DNA of 46,930 bases from Candidatus Geothermincola primus (GTDB lineage: Bacteria > Actinomycetota > Geothermincolia > Geothermincolales > Geothermincolaceae). Positions 7,646 to 36,413 of the stretch are shown in pieces. The position numbers and the translations under genes were made by a program. Position 1 is the stretch's first letter. The number at the start of each line of letters is the position of its first letter. Where the stretch lies: contig JACVIX010000007.1 in the NCBI GenBank assembly GCA_015711725.1, positions 1 to 46,930 of the forward strand, in the 5' to 3' direction. Under the pieces are notes generated by a model, which saw nothing but the letters and a program-made list of their open reading frames with translations, searched no databases and was not told where the DNA came from.

Positions 7646-8716
7646 TCATGCGGGAAAGACCTCCACTTTAAGCCCTTTTTCTTCCACAATCTCCCAGCTC
7701 GCCTTGCTTTCAACGCCATAAGCGTGCTCGAAAAGCCCTTGGGCTAGACCCACCAGCATGAGATGAATGGTGGCGTTTTCCATGAGCATGGTCATTCCCC
7801 TTTCTCCAACGCTCAAAGACGCCAGGTTGCCCAACCCACGTAGCGCTAACTGCTTCCGCAATCCTTCCTCAGGGTCTTTCAAATCTAGGGAATACATCCC
7901 TTCACGGGTCAGTCGCTTTTGGGACTCGATTACCACCTCCGGTATGGTCTCACCAAGCTCCCTTTCCAGCTCATCGAAGACCGCCTCCAGCACGGAGGGG
8001 GCAAAGAAAACCATCCGTCTTCCAGTTTCGCGACTATGAATGAGGCCATTATCAAGGTCCCAGGAGAACTCGCCTAAAAGGGTGGGGGCACCACAAGAGT
8101 TGCATCTCTGATACTCTATATTTCCCTCGCTGTATGCGTATTTCCTCATGGTCAGCCTTCCTTTGAACTCCTCAGGATGGCGGGAGGGAAACGCCCTAAT
8201 CTGATAGACACCTGGGCTTACCTCCTGGTAGGAATATCCCATCTCTCTGCCCATCACCGCCTCGAAAGCCGCAACCGGGTCCACTGTCCCTAAGGTTATG
8301 GAGTAGGGATTCTCGATATTTAAAAGGATATAATCGTCATCGTCGCCTTTCACACGCCAATCCACCACCTCAAATTTTCCGTAACCAAGAACGTACCCGA
8401 TTCCCAACATCCCCTGAATCACCTTGCCTACTTCCAGTTTCCCGTCGCGTACCTGCTCCTTTAAGATGTCTGGAATCACGCGATCCATATAGGCGCGAGC
8501 CGCCCGCCTTCGAGTGTTGATCACTATGCGTTCAATGGAGACGCCTACTATATCCTCTACCCCTTTCAACAGAGTCTCTAGGTTATCGCTCTCTATGAAA
8601 ATGAGTATATGCCTGGTGTCACGGTTCTGGAGGATGAAGCCGCTTGAGTGCCAGGTGTGCTCCGCGGTAATGTAAGTGGGTATGCCGCATTGCGTGCATA
8701 CTTCGATGCCTTCCAT
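7646..8716 (-). CDS. Internally duplicated CxxC protein, function unknown
   Basis: A 356-residue soluble protein; the ATG at 8716 follows GAGGGGG. It is a tandem duplication: residues about 3-178 align along their whole length with about 201-356. Each half begins with a zinc-ribbon-like CxxCGxPT (Cys7/Cys10 and Cys205/Cys208). A W-x5-G-L/F-I segment, a strand-helix block ending in IERIVI / IPEVVI, and ENxxI...FEAVMG / FEHAYG follow, ending in QIRAFPS / KVEVFPA. Only one CxxC pair per half is present, so a metal site would need both halves or a dimer. The alpha/beta pattern recalls 4-vinyl-reductase/V4R or heme-NO-binding-like ligand domains, but I do not recognise a family with confidence. 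No close operon partner; the acyl-CoA dehydrogenase end is 365 bases upstream on the same strand. Confidence 0.75.
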   Translation of the reverse strand: MEGIEVCTQCGIPTYITAEHTWHSSGFILQNRDTRHILIFIESDNLETLLKGVEDIVGVSIERIVINTRRRAARAYMDRVIPDILKEQVRDGKLEVGKVIQGMLGIGYVLGYGKFEVVDWRVKGDDDDYILLNIENPYSITLGTVDPVAAFEAVMGREMGYSYQEVSPGVYQIRAFPSRHPEEFKGRLTMRKYAYSEGNIEYQRCNSCGAPTLLGEFSWDLDNGLIHSRETGRRMVFFAPSVLEAVFDELERELGETIPEVVIESQKRLTREGMYSLDLKDPEEGLRKQLALRGLGNLASLSVGERGMTMLMENATIHLMLVGLAQGLFEHAYGVESKASWEIVEEKGLKVEVFPA

Positions 8717-9081: not shown

Positions 9082-10320
9082 CTATTCCCCACCGACCAAA
9101 GCCTCCCCGGCGACCAAGGCCAGGAAATCGTTGGAGCCATCCTCGATCAATCCCGCTCTCGCGTCGCGGAAGAGCTTTTCCACAGTGGACTCCTTGGAGA
9201 GGCCATAACCGCCGCAGAGCTGCACCGCCTCGTTAGCCACTTCAAAAGCGGCCTGTGTACAGAAAACCTTGGAAGCGATGGAATACTGGGTATAGGGAGG
9301 GTTGGTGTTGAAGTTGAATTCCATCACCGCCCGGGAGAAATATCTGCAGGCTTCCACCAGTTTAAACATATGAAAAAGTTTATAGCGCACCAATTGATGC
9401 TCGATGAGGGGTTTCCCTCCCTGGATGCGCTGTTTGCAGTATTCCAGAGCTTCCTCGTAACATGCCCGGGCAACTCCGGTAAAGAACGCACCCATGCATG
9501 CGTTGGCAGTGGAGAGGGTGATATCCAGCAGAGCCTCGTAGGAGTCCTGTTCAACCAACATATTTTCCTTAGGCACCCGCACGTCGTCGAAGTAGATCTC
9601 GCCCTGGTTGAGCGCCCTTTGCCCTAGCTTGTTCAGAGGCTTGCCCCGGCTCACCCCGGGAAGGTCCAATGGTACGATGCAGATGCCCCCTCCCGCCATG
9701 CCCATCTCCGGCTCGATGGTCAGATAGACCGCGGCGTGGGTGGCCACCGTTCCGCAGGAAACCCAGGCGGCCTTGGTTCCGTTGATCACCCATTCATCTC
9801 CCTCCAGCCTGGCCCGGCAGGAGCCGGCGCACTCCGGAAGACTGAATTGGGCGGTGAAAGGAGCCAGGGTATCGGAACCATGGTCAGGTTCGGTGATAGC
9901 CCAGCATCCGATTATTTTAGCCTCTTTATCCTCACAGAAGGGAAGTATAAAGGTGTTGACCAGGTAATCGTTGGGCACCATGCTGGAGAGGAAAGCGGGA
10001 AAGCAAGCCACCCCGAAAGCTATCATGAAGTCTATGCTGCCCCATGATATCTCCTCAAAGAGCATGTGCACCTCCAGAGGAGAGAATCCACCCCCGCCGT
10101 ATATCTCTGGGATGAGTATCTTATGCAAGCCTATCTCATATCCCTGCTTAAAAACTTTCCAAAAGATGGAATCCTTGGCGATAACGTCTTCCGGATCGAG
10201 TTTGTCCAGTTCCAAGCTGGCGGGGCGGAGAACGTCCCGGGCGAACTCGTGCACAGTCTTTCGGGTCATCTCCTGTTCCTTGGTTAAATTAAGGTTAAGA
10301 TCCAAATAGGGCACCAGCAA
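9082..10320 (-). CDS. Acyl-CoA dehydrogenase
   Basis: A 412-residue flavoenzyme of normal family length. The N-terminal helical domain (LTKEQEMTRKTVHEFARD) is followed by the FAD-contacting segment IIGCWAITEPDHGSD, a beta domain (WVINGTKAAWVSCG) and the C-terminal helical domain with CGGYGLSKESTVEKLFRDAR. The probable catalytic base is the Glu of LIEDGSND near residue 393, in the place of the usual YEGT motif. It oxidises an acyl-CoA to the 2,3-enoyl-CoA, passing electrons to an ETF-like acceptor. No ATG is available: TTG at 10320 or GTG at 10314 follow AAGGAG. It is the last gene of the SCP2-DUF2148-DUF2148-ACS-ACAD run, 56 bases after the synthetase. Substrate unknown. Confidence 0.93.
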   Translation of the reverse strand: MLVPYLDLNLNLTKEQEMTRKTVHEFARDVLRPASLELDKLDPEDVIAKDSIFWKVFKQGYEIGLHKILIPEIYGGGGFSPLEVHMLFEEISWGSIDFMIAFGVACFPAFLSSMVPNDYLVNTFILPFCEDKEAKIIGCWAITEPDHGSDTLAPFTAQFSLPECAGSCRARLEGDEWVINGTKAAWVSCGTVATHAAVYLTIEPEMGMAGGGICIVPLDLPGVSRGKPLNKLGQRALNQGEIYFDDVRVPKENMLVEQDSYEALLDITLSTANACMGAFFTGVARACYEEALEYCKQRIQGGKPLIEHQLVRYKLFHMFKLVEACRYFSRAVMEFNFNTNPPYTQYSIASKVFCTQAAFEVANEAVQLCGGYGLSKESTVEKLFRDARAGLIEDGSNDFLALVAGEALVGGE

Positions 10321-10376
10321 TCATCTCCTTTCCGGTGATATAGCCGTGATTCTTCCGCTTCAAGACTTACTCCGCT

Positions 10377-11987
10377 TCAGGGTTTATAATCCTCGAACTT
10401 GTACACGTTGCTTGCGTCGGGAGAGAACTCCTCTCTGAGTATACGGTCGAGAAACTTCTCCGAGGGACTCTTGGGAATCTCGTCCACCAGCTGGAGGTAA
10501 CTTGGAACCGCGTTAGCCTCCAGGCCCTCCATCGCCTTTTTAAAAATGGAGGCGGGATCGATCTGGCGGCCCTCGAAAAGCACTACCGCCGCTACTAAGT
10601 CGCTCTCACCCGGCGCTCCCGAGGCGGCGGGGATACCATATACGCACACTTCGGAGACGTCAGGATGCTCGCCGATAACCTTCTCCACATATTCGGGCTT
10701 GATGAACTCTCCCTGTCTTCTCAGAGCGGTTCCCTTACGGTAATCGAAGAAGAGCCAACCTTCCTCATCCCGGTGCACCATATCGCCTGTGCGCAGCCAG
10801 CCCCCTCGGGTCTTCTCCTTGGAGGCCTCCGGCTTCCCATAATAATCCACCTCAGCTGGCACTCCAGCCTGGCGGCAGATGAGTTCCCCTGTTACTCCTG
10901 GAGGCACCTCGTTGTCGTTCTCGTCCACCACTTTCATCTCCATGACCCCTTCGATAGGTTTCCCGAATGAGCCTATGGGTCCCTCACCAATGGGTTTGTA
11001 GGCGAAACCTCCTTCCACTGCGCCATACCACTCCAGTATTTTCACGTTGAAGCGCTTCTCGAAGGCTTCCCAGAGGGGCAGAGGGGTGCCTGCGGAGATC
11101 ACTACTTTGACTGGGTTGTCCGCGTCATCCGGCCGCGGAGGCTCGTTATAGATACCCGCCATCATGCCTCCCAACAGAGAGAAGCTGGTGCACCCATACT
11201 TGCGGCAGATATCCCAGATACGGCTCTTGGAGAAGCGCTGCCCAATCACCGCTGGAATACCTAATGAGATGGCGGGCATCATGGTCACCGCCTGGGCGTT
11301 ACCATGGGTGAGGGAAAGACCCGTGTAAAGTATGTCTTCTGGCGTATACTTCCAGACCATCTGGGCTAGCACCACGTACATGAGGGTTCGAGATGACTTT
11401 ATCAGTACTCCCTTGGGATTTCCCGTCACCCCGGAGGTGTATATGATCTCCAGAGGCAAGTTGGGATCATCCACGCGTCCAGGAAGCTCCAGCACCTCGG
11501 GACCCTCCAGCATCGCTTGAACCGTGGTATATTGGTCCTTCAAACCCTGGTCCGCATCGGGCTTCAGGTTGAGGATAACCTTATCCAGCTCGGGTGCATT
11601 CTTCGCCGCCTTCTCTACCTCGGGCAGGAGGTCGGCGGTGGTAATCACCATCTTGGCGTCAGAATCATTAAGCTGATAAGCGAGCTTCTCCCCTTTGGAG
11701 CGAGGGTCTATGGGCACCGATACGATACCGGTCAAGGCGGAGACCATGAAGGAGTAGAGCACCTCGGGATGGTTGCGCATCACCAGCGCTAACTTGTCCC
11801 CTTGGGACATCCCCAGCTCACGCAGACCCATGGCCATCTTGATGGAGTTGGAGAGTATCTCTCGATAGGTTAGTTGCTCATCGGGGTATAGGCCCCCGTT
11901 TTCGAAGATGATGCCCACGGCGTCTGGTTTCTCCTCCACCTTGGACTCCAGGAGATGGGAGAGGAGCGCGGGGCTCTTTTCCGCCAT
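10377..11987 (-). CDS. AMP-forming acyl-CoA synthetase (ligase)
   Basis: A 536-residue ANL-superfamily enzyme; the ATG at 11987 follows AAAGGAGGT. The adenylate-binding motif reads TSGVTGNPKG (184-193, with Val where Thr is usual). WYGAVEGG is the A5 motif and GGWLRTGDM the A7 motif. The C-terminal hinge region FFDYRKG is followed by the catalytic Lys region KSPSEKFLDRIL near 512. It would activate a carboxylic acid to its CoA thioester in the cytosol, feeding the acyl-CoA dehydrogenase encoded 56 bases downstream. Overall resemblance is to medium/long-chain or aromatic/crotonobetaine-type ligases. The sequence does not fix the substrate, but an SCP2 domain protein in the same operon hints at a bulky lipid or sterol-like acid. 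Confidence 0.93.
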   Translation of the reverse strand: MAEKSPALLSHLLESKVEEKPDAVGIIFENGGLYPDEQLTYREILSNSIKMAMGLRELGMSQGDKLALVMRNHPEVLYSFMVSALTGIVSVPIDPRSKGEKLAYQLNDSDAKMVITTADLLPEVEKAAKNAPELDKVILNLKPDADQGLKDQYTTVQAMLEGPEVLELPGRVDDPNLPLEIIYTSGVTGNPKGVLIKSSRTLMYVVLAQMVWKYTPEDILYTGLSLTHGNAQAVTMMPAISLGIPAVIGQRFSKSRIWDICRKYGCTSFSLLGGMMAGIYNEPPRPDDADNPVKVVISAGTPLPLWEAFEKRFNVKILEWYGAVEGGFAYKPIGEGPIGSFGKPIEGVMEMKVVDENDNEVPPGVTGELICRQAGVPAEVDYYGKPEASKEKTRGGWLRTGDMVHRDEEGWLFFDYRKGTALRRQGEFIKPEYVEKVIGEHPDVSEVCVYGIPAASGAPGESDLVAAVVLFEGRQIDPASIFKKAMEGLEANAVPSYLQLVDEIPKSPSEKFLDRILREEFSPDASNVYKFEDYKP

Positions 11988-12026
11988 TATCTTACCTCCT
12001 TTCCTCCTATATGGACCTTCGGCTTT

Positions 12027-12671
12027 TCATTCCACCGCCCCAATAAACCTGCGGGTAAAGGAAGGAAAATCCGCCGCGAAACGCTCTTGCCACTCCTCCG
12101 GCGTCCAGTACTTGTGCCGGTCGAAGAAGGGGTCGGTCTGCTGATAGCTCACTGCTACCCCTATACAGAAGTCTACATCGGAGATGAACTCGCAAGCGGT
12201 GGCGGCGGTCCCCAGGGTCTGGAAAACCCGGCAGTGCAAGCCCAGACGCCAAGCCATAGCCGCCGCTGCCATTGCGGCCATATGCATATCATAAACGGCG
12301 AAATGACAACAAGGGCCGTTGGCCACGATACCTTCCACCGTGTCGGCTTTGTTCAGCTCCTCGCAGGTGGCATATCCGCATGCGCCACAATCGAAGTTAT
12401 AAACAGATTTGCGCTTGGCGCCGATGACCAAGGCGCGGGCATCCTCCTTGGCTAGATCGGCGAAGCTTCTACCATCCCGGTCCGCAAGTGGGGAGAGACC
12501 CGCAATACCCTCGCAGAACCCCGATAGGTCCTCGAACTCCTCTGGACCAATGGCGACGATCTTCAGTTTTTTCTTCCCGAACATAAGCGCAGTGTTGGCG
12601 GCGATGGCCATGAGCTCCACCGCCCGGTCCAAACCCCCGCGGAGCAGTTCGTCCGAATTGATAATAGTCAT
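12027..12671 (-). CDS. DUF2148 ferredoxin-domain protein (second of a pair)
   Basis: A 214-residue protein with a ribosome binding site of GGGGGTGAGGG before the ATG. It has the DUF2148 layout: an N-terminal helical region (DRAVELMAIAANTAL), a strand-rich centre (DARALVIGAKRKS), then a Cys cluster Cys95-x2-Cys98-G-x3-Cys103 and Cys121-Cys122 (GPCC). A C-terminal alpha/beta segment with LGTAATACEFISDVDFCIGVAVS follows. The CxxCGxxxC...GPxC spacing could hold a 4Fe-4S cluster. It lies 15 bases after a paralogue with the same pattern, so the two probably form a heterodimer. The family is uncharacterised; its members are, from memory, mostly in anaerobes. Operon context is acyl-CoA activation and oxidation. 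Confidence 0.85.
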   Translation of the reverse strand: MTIINSDELLRGGLDRAVELMAIAANTALMFGKKKLKIVAIGPEEFEDLSGFCEGIAGLSPLADRDGRSFADLAKEDARALVIGAKRKSVYNFDCGACGYATCEELNKADTVEGIVANGPCCHFAVYDMHMAAMAAAAMAWRLGLHCRVFQTLGTAATACEFISDVDFCIGVAVSYQQTDPFFDRHKYWTPEEWQERFAADFPSFTRRFIGAVE

Positions 12672-12686
12672 CCGCCCTCACCCCCT

Positions 12687-13358
12687 TTAGCTGTATATAG
12701 ACCGGAAGGTAGGGAATAGGCGCCCAATCAAGCGGTTCTCCAGCACTGCGGCATTGTATTGATCGTACTGTCTGGGAAGGTCCTTGAAGGGGCTCTTTTC
12801 CGTTACAGACGCTAAAAATCCCAAAGCTATGTCACATTTATAGGGCGTAAGCCCCATTCTTAAAGCCGCCACGCCCACCGACATCTTTATGGCGTGATCG
12901 ATTCCCAGCTGCCTGGCAAGGGTTACCGCGCCCCCAAGGGCGTAAGCGAGATTCATGGAGCGCAACAGGCAAAAAGGGCCCCGGAAAGCCACGCTGGGCT
13001 CATCAGGCAGCTTGGGCACTTTCCTCCAAGAATCGCAGAGGGTGTGCCCGCAGAGGTTGCAGTTGGAATCCATGGGGTCGTGGCCGGAACGGCGGTCCGC
13101 CATCACTAGGACCACGTCCGAATCCCTAATCTGTACCGCGTCGGAGCGGAAAAAATCCCAGGAAGGATTGTCCTCTGCCATCTTTTCCACCACGATGGCC
13201 ATCTCCTCGATGGAGTCTCGGTCTTCAATATATTGGACGCTGATCTCGTCGATGCCTCCCACCCGAGGCGCGGTCACCGCGGAGGCGAGGAGCAATTTAG
13301 CGGCGAGTCGGGCGCTCTCCTCCCTCCGCTCATGATATTCTCTCAATGCCCTTTCCAT
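12687..13358 (-). CDS. DUF2148 ferredoxin-domain protein (first of a pair)
   Basis: A 223-residue protein from the ATG at 13358, preceded by AGGAGGTGAAG; the GTG two codons earlier overlaps the ribosome binding site and is unlikely. It is paralogous to the next gene: N-terminal helices (ESARLAAKLLLASAVTAPRVGG), then VVLVMADRR, then Cys100-x2-Cys103-G-x3-Cys108 (NCNLCGHTLC) and Cys130 (GPFC), then LGGAVTLARQLGIDHAIKMSVGVAALRMG. The shared Cys pattern suggests one Fe-S cluster per subunit. Its C-terminal half ends with FKDLPRQYDQYN, similar in place to the partner's TDPFFDRHKYW. The role is not established. A pair of such genes between an SCP2 protein and an acyl-CoA synthetase points to a redox step on a CoA-bound or lipid substrate (inference). 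Confidence 0.83.
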   Translation of the reverse strand: MERALREYHERREESARLAAKLLLASAVTAPRVGGIDEISVQYIEDRDSIEEMAIVVEKMAEDNPSWDFFRSDAVQIRDSDVVLVMADRRSGHDPMDSNCNLCGHTLCDSWRKVPKLPDEPSVAFRGPFCLLRSMNLAYALGGAVTLARQLGIDHAIKMSVGVAALRMGLTPYKCDIALGFLASVTEKSPFKDLPRQYDQYNAAVLENRLIGRLFPTFRSIYS

Positions 13359-13419
13359 CTTCACCTCCTATTCCGGGGAAAGGACCCCATCGCCAGCCTT
13401 CACAAAGCGGCGGGAAAGG

Positions 13420-13827
13420 CTATACGTCGGTGGGCAGTCCTTCCCTTTCGCAGATCTTGGGATAATTCTCATAAGCCGGTTTGAGCAGGGGGAGCAACCC
13501 CAGCACCTTAGCCATAGGCCCTTTGGCCTTGACTTTCTTCTTTGCCAGGGCGACGGGAAGGCTTAGCTTCTGGAGCCAAAAGGCATGACAGTCATCCCCG
13601 GAAATCCACATTTCGATATCCGGCTTCGCGTCACATTCCCCGGTCACCACCACCGGTTTGGGGTCTCCGTGAAGAAGCCAAATCTCCCCGTCCGGATCAT
13701 TGATGATGAAGCGGATGTTGATGTTCTCTTCATTGGCTTTAGGGCCTACCTCCGGATCATCCGCCAGCAATTGGAAAAGGCCTCCCAAGATCTCGTACAT
13801 CTTTTCTGTGCTCTCGAAGATTGGCAT
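13420..13827 (-). CDS. SCP2 sterol-binding domain protein
   Basis: A 135-residue single-domain protein; AGGAGGTGAG precedes the ATG at 13827. The pattern is that of SCP2 lipid carriers: NIRFIINDPDGEIWL, the strand PVVVTGECDAKPDIEMWISGDD, a helix AFWLQKLSLPVAL, then KVKAKGPMAKVLGLLPLLKPAYENYP. These domains bind hydrophobic acyl chains or sterol-like molecules in a pocket and can hand them to enzymes. It is the first gene of a five-gene minus-strand run (gaps 61, 15, 39 and 56 bases), with a candidate promoter at 14000-14027. It may present the acid or CoA ester to the downstream synthetase, dehydrogenase and Fe-S proteins (inference). Confidence 0.9.
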   Translation of the reverse strand: MPIFESTEKMYEILGGLFQLLADDPEVGPKANEENINIRFIINDPDGEIWLLHGDPKPVVVTGECDAKPDIEMWISGDDCHAFWLQKLSLPVALAKKKVKAKGPMAKVLGLLPLLKPAYENYPKICEREGLPTDV

Positions 13828-18631: not shown

Positions 18632-19255
18632 TCAACTCAGTTCATCCATATAAGCGGCCCTATAATTCCCGCTTTTTAGCGCCTGGATGAGATCTTCCTC
18701 GCTCTCCAGGTGATCCTCGAAGATAGTCACGCATTTCCCCAGCTGCTCCACGCTGTGAGCATCGCTTCCCCCCACACCGAAAAGGCCGTATTTCCTTCTA
18801 ATAAGCTCCGCTTGATTATTGCTCTTGGTGGTGCTCGCCCCGTTATGGGTCTCCAGCGCCACTATGGAAGAGAGAAGCTCCTCCGGCAGGCTGTGCCGGT
18901 GGGGATGACGCACGTCCCATCCCCTACAAGGATGAGCGGGGATGATGATGCCTCCCGCGGACTCCACGTTCGTCTTCAGATCTTTGAAGGGAAAGAGATA
19001 ATAGCGTATATGTTCATTCCAGCCGAACACCAGCATGTCTCCTAGTTCGGTATATACTTCCATCCCGCGGAAGATTTTGAAGCCGCGGTCCAGGGCTATC
19101 TCGTACATCATTTGCGCTCCCTTATAGGTGGAATGCTCGGTAACGCAGACCGCGTCCAAACCTATCTCCAGTGCCCGTTCTAACAGTTCGTGAGGCTGAA
19201 TACTGGAGCAACGAGATGAGAGGTTGGTATGGACGTGCATATCCACCACCATCAT
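18632..19255 (-). CDS. PHP-domain phosphoesterase-like protein (second copy)
   Basis: A 207-residue protein with the PHP metal motifs: DMHVHT at the start (HxH), VTEHS near 40, a Glu in GMEVYTELGD, IIPAHPCRGW near 108, and GVGGSDAHS near 160. PHP proteins are metal-dependent phosphoesterases or nucleases. The closest general match in size is the stand-alone PHP phosphoesterase group (YciV/RNase AM-like and others), and the substrate is unknown. Its ATG overlaps the stop of the upstream paralogue by four bases (ATGA), so the two are translationally coupled. Alignment with the first copy is close over the whole length, which marks a tandem duplication. Confidence 0.88.
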   Translation of the reverse strand: MMVVDMHVHTNLSSRCSSIQPHELLERALEIGLDAVCVTEHSTYKGAQMMYEIALDRGFKIFRGMEVYTELGDMLVFGWNEHIRYYLFPFKDLKTNVESAGGIIIPAHPCRGWDVRHPHRHSLPEELLSSIVALETHNGASTTKSNNQAELIRRKYGLFGVGGSDAHSVEQLGKCVTIFEDHLESEEDLIQALKSGNYRAAYMDELS

Positions 19256-19908
19256 TTTTTTTCACCCCCCTGCGTTTTGCGGAGGGAAGGGACTTCCTCA
19301 ATATAACGCGCTTGGCATCTACCCGATTTGATCTCCTCGATCAAATCCTCTTCGTTCTCAAGCTCCCTCTGGAAAACGGTGAGACATCTGCCTACCTGCG
19401 CTAGGTGATGGGCGTCACTTCCCCCCACCCCGGGAAGACGATAGCTCCTGGCTATCTCCATAGCCAATCGATTGTATTCCCTGTTGGTGCCCCCATTTAG
19501 AACCTCCAGCGCGTCCGATCTTCGTAGCAGTGCCTCCGCCTTCTCGTCGCCAAGAATTTCAAATAAGCTCCCCTGGTTCCTGCAGGGATGGGCGGGAATA
19601 ATCGCTCCTCCCACCTCCCGTACCTCCCGCCAGAGCTCCTCGAAGGGTACTATCCAGGAAGGAGCGTCTCTCAACAATCCGAATACTAGCATGTCACCCA
19701 GGTCGGTATATATTTCCACGCCACGAAAAACGGAAAACCCTCTCTGTTTTCCCAACTCATAAGCGACCATGGCTCCTTCCACCTCGTCGTGCTCGGTTAC
19801 GCAGAGGGCATCCAGACCTACCTCTCGAGCCCATTCTATCAATTCTTCCGGATGAATGAAGGAGCAGGGAGATGAGATTATAGTATGAACATGCATATCT
19901 ACTAACAT
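19252..19908 (-). CDS. PHP-domain phosphoesterase-like protein (first copy)
   Basis: A 218-residue paralogue of the next gene; CAGGAG lies upstream of the ATG at 19908. Motifs: DMHVHTIISSPCS at the N-terminus, VTEHDEVEGA, GVEIYTDLGDMLVFGLL, IIPAHPCRNQ and GVGGSDAHHLAQVG. The ending EEDLIEEIKSGRCQARYIEE matches EEDLIQALKSGNYRAAYMDE of the second copy. Both keep the full set of metal-binding His/Asp/Glu, so both are probably active. The retained pair with overlapping frames suggests a heterodimer or two related substrates (inference). Confidence 0.88.
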   Translation of the reverse strand: MLVDMHVHTIISSPCSFIHPEELIEWAREVGLDALCVTEHDEVEGAMVAYELGKQRGFSVFRGVEIYTDLGDMLVFGLLRDAPSWIVPFEELWREVREVGGAIIPAHPCRNQGSLFEILGDEKAEALLRRSDALEVLNGGTNREYNRLAMEIARSYRLPGVGGSDAHHLAQVGRCLTVFQRELENEEDLIEEIKSGRCQARYIEEVPSLRKTQGGEKK

Positions 19909-35480: not shown

Positions 35481-36413
35481 TTAGCTCCCGTCCTCTATTA
35501 TGCCTTTGATCGCAACAGAATCCACACCTGAGAATTTAATGGGAATCGTATCGCCCTCTCCACCCAGGAGATGTCCGCTTACGGAGATATAATCTATATC
35601 GTCAAGCGAACCGGTATATGGAGTGAGCACGCTAATATTGGAACCCCTTTGGTGCAGTAATTTACCTATACCTAGGGTGAAACCCTCACAGTCTGCAAGG
35701 CCCAGCAGTTGTCCCCGCTCCAATCCAGGCTCTCCGAGCCAATTTTTTACAGGAAAGTGTGGCTCTATCCGCATCGCGGAAACGTCCAAGGCGCGCGGTC
35801 GGGCGTCACGGAAATATCTCCTCCACAACAAAGCCCGGTAACGCACGCGCTCCGCTCTCTCTCTTTTTCTGATTAGTGGAGGCGGTTCCATAGTGATGAC
35901 GTTCCGGCGCAAACCCTCCTCTAGCGCGCCTAGGATATGTCCCAATTCGCCCGATCTCTCTAGAGCGACGATTAAGTCGGGCAACAGTTTTCTCATTTTA
36001 CTTCGTTTGAGCAGGGCGGCGAGGTGCCCCTTCACCATGCCAGAGGTGTCGATGAGCAGATGATGATAGCCCCGCTCCCGGGCATAGCCATCCAGTTTTA
36101 GACTCGCCTCCACCACTCTGGAGACCGCATAAGCAGGAGTGGTTTCCCCGACGAAGATCATCTTGGTGGGGAAAAGAACGGTTTCCGCTTGATCATCGCT
36201 TCTCCACGGGAGCATTAAACCAACGGTCATAGGCGGCCCCACAGTTGATTGGCCCAAATCACAATCGATCACTCCTACCTTTCGTCCCCGGTCCACAAGG
36301 TAGCTGGCCAGCCGTAGAAGTAAGGTGGTCTTTCCCGTATCCGAAGCGCCGATGGCCATTATCTTGCGTATGTTCTCCCTTATTATCTTCTCCGCCAGGG
36401 CTTCGCTATCCAT
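35481..36413 (-). CDS. Clp1/NOL9-like P-loop polynucleotide kinase
   Basis: A 310-residue protein with Walker A GASDTGKTTL (22-31), the Clp1-specific VGVIDCDLGQSTVGPP (47-62) and LLIDTSGMVKG near 117. A C-terminal region with LLGLADCEGFTLGIGKLL and DYISVSGHLLGG follows. The kinase domain matches the mRNA-cleavage/polynucleotide 5'-hydroxyl kinase family (CLP1_P), which phosphorylates RNA or DNA 5'-OH ends in archaea and eukaryotes; bacterial members are little studied. It sits between a PLP enzyme (12-base gap) and a DUF2085 protein (5-base gap). Substrate type in bacteria is open. An alternative is a different P-loop NTPase that only shares the Walker-region signature. Confidence 0.82.
   Translation of the reverse strand: MDSEALAEKIIRENIRKIMAIGASDTGKTTLLLRLASYLVDRGRKVGVIDCDLGQSTVGPPMTVGLMLPWRSDDQAETVLFPTKMIFVGETTPAYAVSRVVEASLKLDGYARERGYHHLLIDTSGMVKGHLAALLKRSKMRKLLPDLIVALERSGELGHILGALEEGLRRNVITMEPPPLIRKRERAERVRYRALLWRRYFRDARPRALDVSAMRIEPHFPVKNWLGEPGLERGQLLGLADCEGFTLGIGKLLHQRGSNISVLTPYTGSLDDIDYISVSGHLLGGEGDTIPIKFSGVDSVAIKGIIEDGS

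Follow-up and report, generated by a model that had tools for sequence, protein, structure and literature searches.

We analysed a contig of 46,930 nucleotides from Candidatus Geothermincola primus (GenBank assembly GCA_015711725.1, contig JACVIX010000007.1; hereafter, the window), which belongs to a metagenome-assembled genome (MAG) of 3.17 Mb and 99.7% completeness. The window carries a conserved operon in which two paralogous DUF2148 proteins, here termed D1 and D2, are encoded together with an SCP2-domain protein, an AMP-forming acyl-CoA ligase and an acyl-CoA dehydrogenase (ACAD). We propose, with a probability of about one half, that D1 and D2 form a nitroreductase-fold iron-sulfur (Fe-S) heterodimer that serves this acyl-CoA module as its dedicated redox partner. 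The proposal draws on the conservation of the operon and its co-occurrence with a single dehydrogenase subfamily, on a predicted nitroreductase fold for DUF2148, and on the exchange of the DUF2148 module for another redox module around the same ligase.

A conserved operon joins a DUF2148 pair to acyl-CoA genes

A preliminary description, made from the letters of the window, had listed five same-strand genes separated by 15-61 bases. We recovered all five; they run SCP2, D2, D1, ligase and dehydrogenase along the minus strand, with gaps of 61, 15, 39 and 56 bases (the first is counted from the adjusted D2 start; from the mechanically called open reading frame (ORF) it is 55). Relatives with the same locus are Actinomycetota MAGs of the order Candidatus Geothermincolales, including Candidatus Solincola daggyaiensis; below, G-numbers denote comparison genomes and L-numbers comparison loci. 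The DUF2148 pair occurs in 7 of the 18 genomes of this order, and a lone DUF2148 gene in none of the 18. The five-gene order is identical in six other genomes, whose proteins are 64-85% identical to those of the window and whose operons are each headed by an SCP2 orthologue (64-69% identity). Together, the seven pair-bearing genomes span two families, with D1 identities of 71-78%. Each of the five genes is under purifying selection, as the ratio of nonsynonymous to synonymous substitution rates (dN/dS) was 0.05-0.14 in two pairs of relatives. Since the whole order recurs in six other genomes and dN/dS is low, the arrangement is not a product of chance, and the operon is genuinely conserved as a unit.

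The dehydrogenase follows the pair closely. Its orthologue (81-85% identity) is present in exactly the seven pair-bearing genomes and in none of the 11 others of the order; the next-closest dehydrogenase relatives, in a comparison run again on 397 phylum genomes, are 49-53% identical, and no D1/D2 pair lies beside them. The expected association of DUF2148 pairs with acyl-CoA genes was found in 7/7 genomes, and within the Actinomycetota we did not see pairs occurring mostly without such genes.

The family as a whole is known from archaea (a Methanosarcina control genome), gut Bacteroides, clostridia and Actinomycetota. Outside the order, DUF2148 is rare and single-copy in the Actinomycetota: it was found in 6 of the 397 phylum genomes, and single genes scored above the cut-off in 7/200 genomes of one class and 4/40 of another, these three samples sharing some genomes. 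The inspected neighbours of single DUF2148 genes are unrelated to acyl-CoA and include a tRNA methyltransferase, an agmatine deiminase, KamA and an alcohol dehydrogenase, among others. When D2 was sought genome-wide beyond the order, the only matches were same-order MAGs, a weak negative, as two peptide patterns were used. Viral contigs, phages and plasmids yielded no pair, and either no DUF2148 gene or unpaired ones only. One further PF09918 match, in G467, was rejected; it scored 22 bits, under the cut-off, and lies inside a long membrane protein.

DUF2148 proteins are predicted to adopt a nitroreductase fold

The cysteine pattern CxxCG-x3-C ... GPxC is present in both paralogues, as previously claimed. 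In our alignment, these four Cys are invariant in 7/7 D1, 7/7 D2 and 13/13 single DUF2148 proteins compared. They correspond to residues 95, 98, 103 and 122 of D1, and in D2 they are spaced C-x2-C-x4-C-x21-C. This pattern suggests that D1 and D2 carry an Fe-S cluster; the PF04060 FeS domain scored 19.3 bits for D1, below its cut-off of 23, and gave no match for D2. Four more Cys (53, 121, 147 and 160) are invariant in D1 only and could, at a guess, hold a second cluster. At 23% identity (E 6e-8), D1 and D2 count as distant paralogues. In the tree, they form a clade of their own apart from the single DUF2148 proteins (bootstrap 95) on long branches, and the duplication is therefore old. D2 retains the ERxxRE N-terminus and the T-A/S-P (AP) loop found in the singles; the AP loop has been lost in D1.

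Searching the Protein Data Bank (PDB) by sequence with D1, D2 and family profiles returned no relative, and ring-nuclease and GTP-binding matches with E values of 0.2-2 were treated as chance. We then compared structures, using AlphaFold (AF2) models of D1 and D2 built from alignments of the window sequences and their relatives. For each protein, all 50 of the 50 PDB matches listed by Foldseek have the nitroreductase fold (best E 1.4e-3 for D1; best E 1.9e-4 for D2, with 27 below 1e-3), and nearly all are flavin mononucleotide (FMN) enzymes. Profile comparison agreed: a profile of DUF2148 singles and D2 scored 31-33 by hhalign against 29 nitroreductases of the same genomes (E 3e-4 to 6e-4), compared with at most 19 for the controls, which comprised reversed nitroreductases, ACAD, ligase, SCP2, the electron-transfer flavoprotein (ETF) and 40 column shuffles. 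The whole-family alignment is collinear over 145 columns. It places ARTAPKxKGxD of DUF2148 with ARxAPSxxNxQPW of the nitroreductases, and the DLGIAxGSAVS helix with their central helix DVGICGQN, DVGICGQNMVLAA. The four Cys sit directly before this long central helix, and in nitroreductases the corresponding segment borders the flavin site across the dimer interface.

DUF2148 thus appears, from these models and profiles, to share the nitroreductase fold, a point that the preliminary description had missed and a fold assignment that is new here. Neither D1 nor D2 matches PF00881 in Pfam, and we do not place DUF2148 as a member of that family. Solved nitroreductases are dimers with flavin at the interface, which makes a D1/D2 heterodimer plausible.

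Two redox modules alternate around one ligase

The best NCBIfam relatives of the ligase are PRK06155 and PRK06187, all scoring below their own cut-offs, and its orthologues occur in pair-bearing and pair-less genomes alike. In four of the comparison genomes (G340, G069, G252 and G166), the ligase orthologue precedes a two-gene dehydrogenase (ACADa, ACADb) and FdNTR, a fusion of Fer4 and PF00881 (4Fe-4S/nitroreductase). The exchange can be followed within one genus, Solincola, to which G188, G177 and the pair-less G166 belong: G166 has FdNTR-ACADb-ACADa-ligase between RACo and TetR genes, and G188 and G177 have ACAD-ligase-D1-D2-SCP2 between the same flanks. The ligase of G166 is 95.5-96.5% identical to those of G188 and G177. 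At the DNA level, the flanks of G166 and G188 align at 79-91%, and between them the ligase alone is alignable. Pair-bearing and pair-less genomes are interleaved in the ligase tree, so that module exchanges, gains or losses have occurred more than once.

As read from their sequences, both modules around this ligase comprise one or more dehydrogenases and a protein that would join Fe-S with a nitroreductase fold. The modules are parallel and not strict substitutes, since pair-bearing genomes keep FdNTR elsewhere (G015, G113, G331 and, on C179, the window genome). In most genomes of the order (L111-L119), including that of the window (C179, L115), FdNTR adjoins a ligase paralogue, LIG2. The LIG2 copy of G166 (L114, 12768-14462) contains one in-frame TGA, reflecting either a pseudogene or a sequence error.

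The module swap is a new point, and it strengthens the earlier idea of an electron-transfer role for the pair. The earlier interpretation is partly right; it needs correcting in that the pair is an add-on to an SCP2-dehydrogenase core, described below.

The dehydrogenase and its SCP2 partner

Aligned to 1ukw and SCAD, the dehydrogenase has Asp at the position of the usual catalytic Glu (IEDGS versus IYEGT), as do 10/10 aligned members of its subfamily. Asp could still serve as the base, and some dehydrogenases of the family hold the catalytic base elsewhere. With Asp in place of the catalytic Glu, both oxidation and reduction are therefore possible. This Asp-bearing subfamily adjoins SCP2 in every copy seen. 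The SCP2 protein is presumably a carrier for a hydrophobic acid or acyl-CoA, and its presence suggests a hydrophobic acid as the substrate. For the "bulky" acyl-CoA previously proposed, SCP2 is the sole indication.

Proposed role and alternative explanations

In the proposed mechanism, the five genes would together serve to degrade or interconvert a carboxylic acid. SCP2 would hold the hydrophobic acid or thioester, the ligase would activate the acid to acyl-CoA, and the dehydrogenase would introduce or reduce the alpha,beta double bond. The heterodimer would be built from D1 and D2, both of which would carry one or more 4Fe-4S clusters just ahead of the central helix, where nitroreductases have their dimer-interface side. 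It would exchange electrons with the dehydrogenase flavin, either directly or by way of ETF, on one side and with ferredoxin or NAD(P) on the other, perhaps using a bound flavin. Read most economically, D1/D2 would be the redox partner of the single-gene dehydrogenase, as FdNTR would be of the two-gene one. It is also possible that the dehydrogenase works with ETF and that D1/D2 comes into play after ETF or acts on the substrate itself. A wider claim, which we consider doubtful, would make D1/D2 a new class of ACAD redox partner, separate from ETF and linking the dehydrogenase directly to ferredoxin-level electrons, and the whole DUF2148 family a branch of the nitroreductase superfamily with a 4Fe-4S cluster inside the fold.

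Several results count against the proposed role, some of them touching the fold. Model confidence is low, with a mean predicted local distance difference test score (pLDDT) of 65 and a predicted template modelling score (pTM) of 0.64 for D1, and 49 and 0.49 for D2. TM-scores of the model matches are 0.3-0.6, so the fold is supported and its detail is not. The D1 profile alone scored 17.8 against nitroreductases, which is not significant. The RRSxR FMN-phosphate motif, present in the nitroreductases of the same genomes, is absent from D1, D2 and the singles, making flavin binding by DUF2148 doubtful. At the level of gene context, single DUF2148 genes adjoin unrelated genes, and the ancestral role of the family is therefore not acyl-CoA-specific. 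An SCP2-ACAD core without DUF2148 occurs at L100-L102 (G199:C1 and two G080 loci), where the gene order is SCP2, ACAD and ADC, the last of the acetoacetate decarboxylase family, and a TetR-type gene lies close by; the pair and the ligase can accordingly be seen as additions to this core. Lastly, ETF genes are present in 18/18 genomes, and a special acceptor is not strictly needed; the idea that D1/D2 substitutes for a missing ETF was rejected for this reason.

The strongest competitor, which we regard as possible though unlikely, is that D1/D2 does not shuttle electrons but itself catalyses a redox step on the acyl-CoA, for example as a reductase or dehydrogenase with flavin and Fe-S whose target is a double bond or ring. 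Most proteins of the nitroreductase fold are enzymes, and the D1 matches include 8uc3_A, a chain of the two-component oxidase AlbAB. Moreover, the sister module carries a full Fer4-nitroreductase, and the D1-only Cys suggest a specialised second site. The absence of the nitroreductase phosphate-binding residues from D1/D2 argues the other way. We think it improbable that D1/D2 stands outside the electron path, as a redox sensor or as a cofactor or cluster maturation factor for the dehydrogenase. The unrelated contexts of single DUF2148 genes would be compatible with such a general accessory role, but the pair occurs with one dehydrogenase only and not with its 49-53% relatives, and in four relatives a divergent TetR gene already covers regulation.

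Less probable still is a link of position only, in which a mobile or inherited block holds D1/D2 and functionally uncoupled acyl-CoA genes. A single order was sampled, and it offers few independent events; however, gene order and short gaps are kept across two deeply diverged families, co-occurrence is perfect, dN/dS is well below 1, and the interleaved ligase tree indicates that the unit was gained or lost whole more than once. We dropped a link to the flanking corrinoid system, which seems very remote: five relatives (L021, L022, L024, L025 and L026) have genes for a RACo-type activator and a pterin-binding methyltransferase, adjacent to each other, beside the operon, and some enzymes of the nitroreductase fold bind corrinoids, but these two genes are not constant neighbours, lying on the other strand and convergent with the operon, not adjoining it in G015 or the window, and bordering the alternative module in G166.

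A redox partnership between D1/D2 and the dehydrogenase would bear on an open energetic problem, as it would give anaerobes a further route for linking the oxidation of acyl-CoA to low-potential carriers. With a predicted fold and a defined operon context, there is a first testable handle on the uncharacterised DUF2148 family, which, like COG4739, went unmentioned in the 5.39 million open papers that we searched. The near-identical ligases with two alternative redox modules in one genus offer a clean natural comparison.

Gene calls and other loci in the window

The D2 start is most likely the ATG at 13358, 6 bases inside the ORF, because the upstream GTG falls inside AGGAGGTG and relatives start with MER or VER. 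For the dehydrogenase, the GTG at 10314 is the most likely start (MPYLDLNL; the L023 counterpart reads MPYTDLNL). All three ACAD domains are present in the dehydrogenase, with 102.9 bits for Acyl-CoA_dh_1 in Pfam. A promoter-like site upstream of SCP2 (14027-13999) did not exceed chance expectation.

Table 1. Features of the DUF2148 operon, in gene order, with window coordinates
Feature	Coordinates	Strand	Basis
SCP2-domain protein, 135 aa, first operon gene	13420..13827	(-)	PF02036 28.0 bits, cut-off 21.3
D2, DUF2148 paralogue, ~223 aa	12687..13358 (ORF 12687-13364)	(-)	PF09918 58.7 bits, cut-off 25
D1, DUF2148 paralogue, 214 aa	12027..12671	(-)	PF09918 61.3 bits, cut-off 25
D1 cluster-motif region (Cys 95, 98, 103, 121/122)	12306..12389	(-)	Four-Cys conservation
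AMP-forming acyl-CoA ligase, 536 aa	10377..11987	(-)	PF00501 (AMP-binding) 201.8 bits
Acyl-CoA dehydrogenase, ~410 aa	9082..10314 (ORF 9082-10320)	(-)	PF00441, PF02770, PF02771

Four other minus-strand loci were seen in passing. At 541-2304, a thiolase-like gene (PF22691) precedes a gene for a ChsH2-type zinc ribbon/OB-fold protein (PF12172, PF01796), a pairing that resembles known thiolase/DUF35 partners of acyl-CoA and steroid side-chain pathways. A protein of 356 aa with CxxC motifs, uncharacterised and without a Pfam match above cut-off, is encoded at 7646-8716; homologues with 36-37% identity lie near the operon in L021, L022 and L024, as a tandem pair in L024. At 18632-19908, two PHP-domain paralogues (207 and 218 aa) lie next to each other and overlap at their ends. 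Finally, a CLP1-type P-loop (polynucleotide kinase-like) protein, here in a bacterium, is encoded at 35481-36413 and adjoins a PALP enzyme.

Comparison with known systems

D1 and D2 score above the cut-off of DUF2148 (PF09918; COG4739, "uncharacterized protein containing a ferredoxin domain"), and share its four Cys and the K/x-PFxD tail common to most members. The other members compared are single genes of ~180 aa outside acyl-CoA loci, whereas D1 and D2 have C-terminal extensions. With the nitroreductase family (PF00881; for example NfsA and the FbiB C-terminal domain) DUF2148 has in common the predicted fold, the order of secondary structure, the AP loop and the central helix; unlike it, D1 and D2 have neither a PF00881 match nor RRSxR, and they carry a 4Fe-4S-type Cys motif inside the predicted fold. 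A literature search for AlbAB-type heterodimers gave no match. The cyclodipeptide oxidase AlbA/AlbB, which is represented among the D1 matches by 8uc3, is likewise a nitroreductase-fold flavoenzyme of two different subunits. It is not known to carry an Fe-S cluster, its chemistry is different, and AlbB is presumably not a DUF2148-like paralogue.

ETF is a heterodimeric redox partner of acyl-CoA dehydrogenases, the role proposed for D1/D2, but belongs to a different family (hhalign 12-14) and is encoded elsewhere in the genome. FdNTR, found beside LIG2, differs in combining an N-terminal ferredoxin-type domain and a standard PF00881 domain in one chain, in its two-gene dehydrogenase partner and in its lack of SCP2. 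Like D1/D2 as predicted here, it brings together Fe-S and nitroreductase elements, and its gene is operonic with a ligase paralogue and acyl-CoA dehydrogenases.

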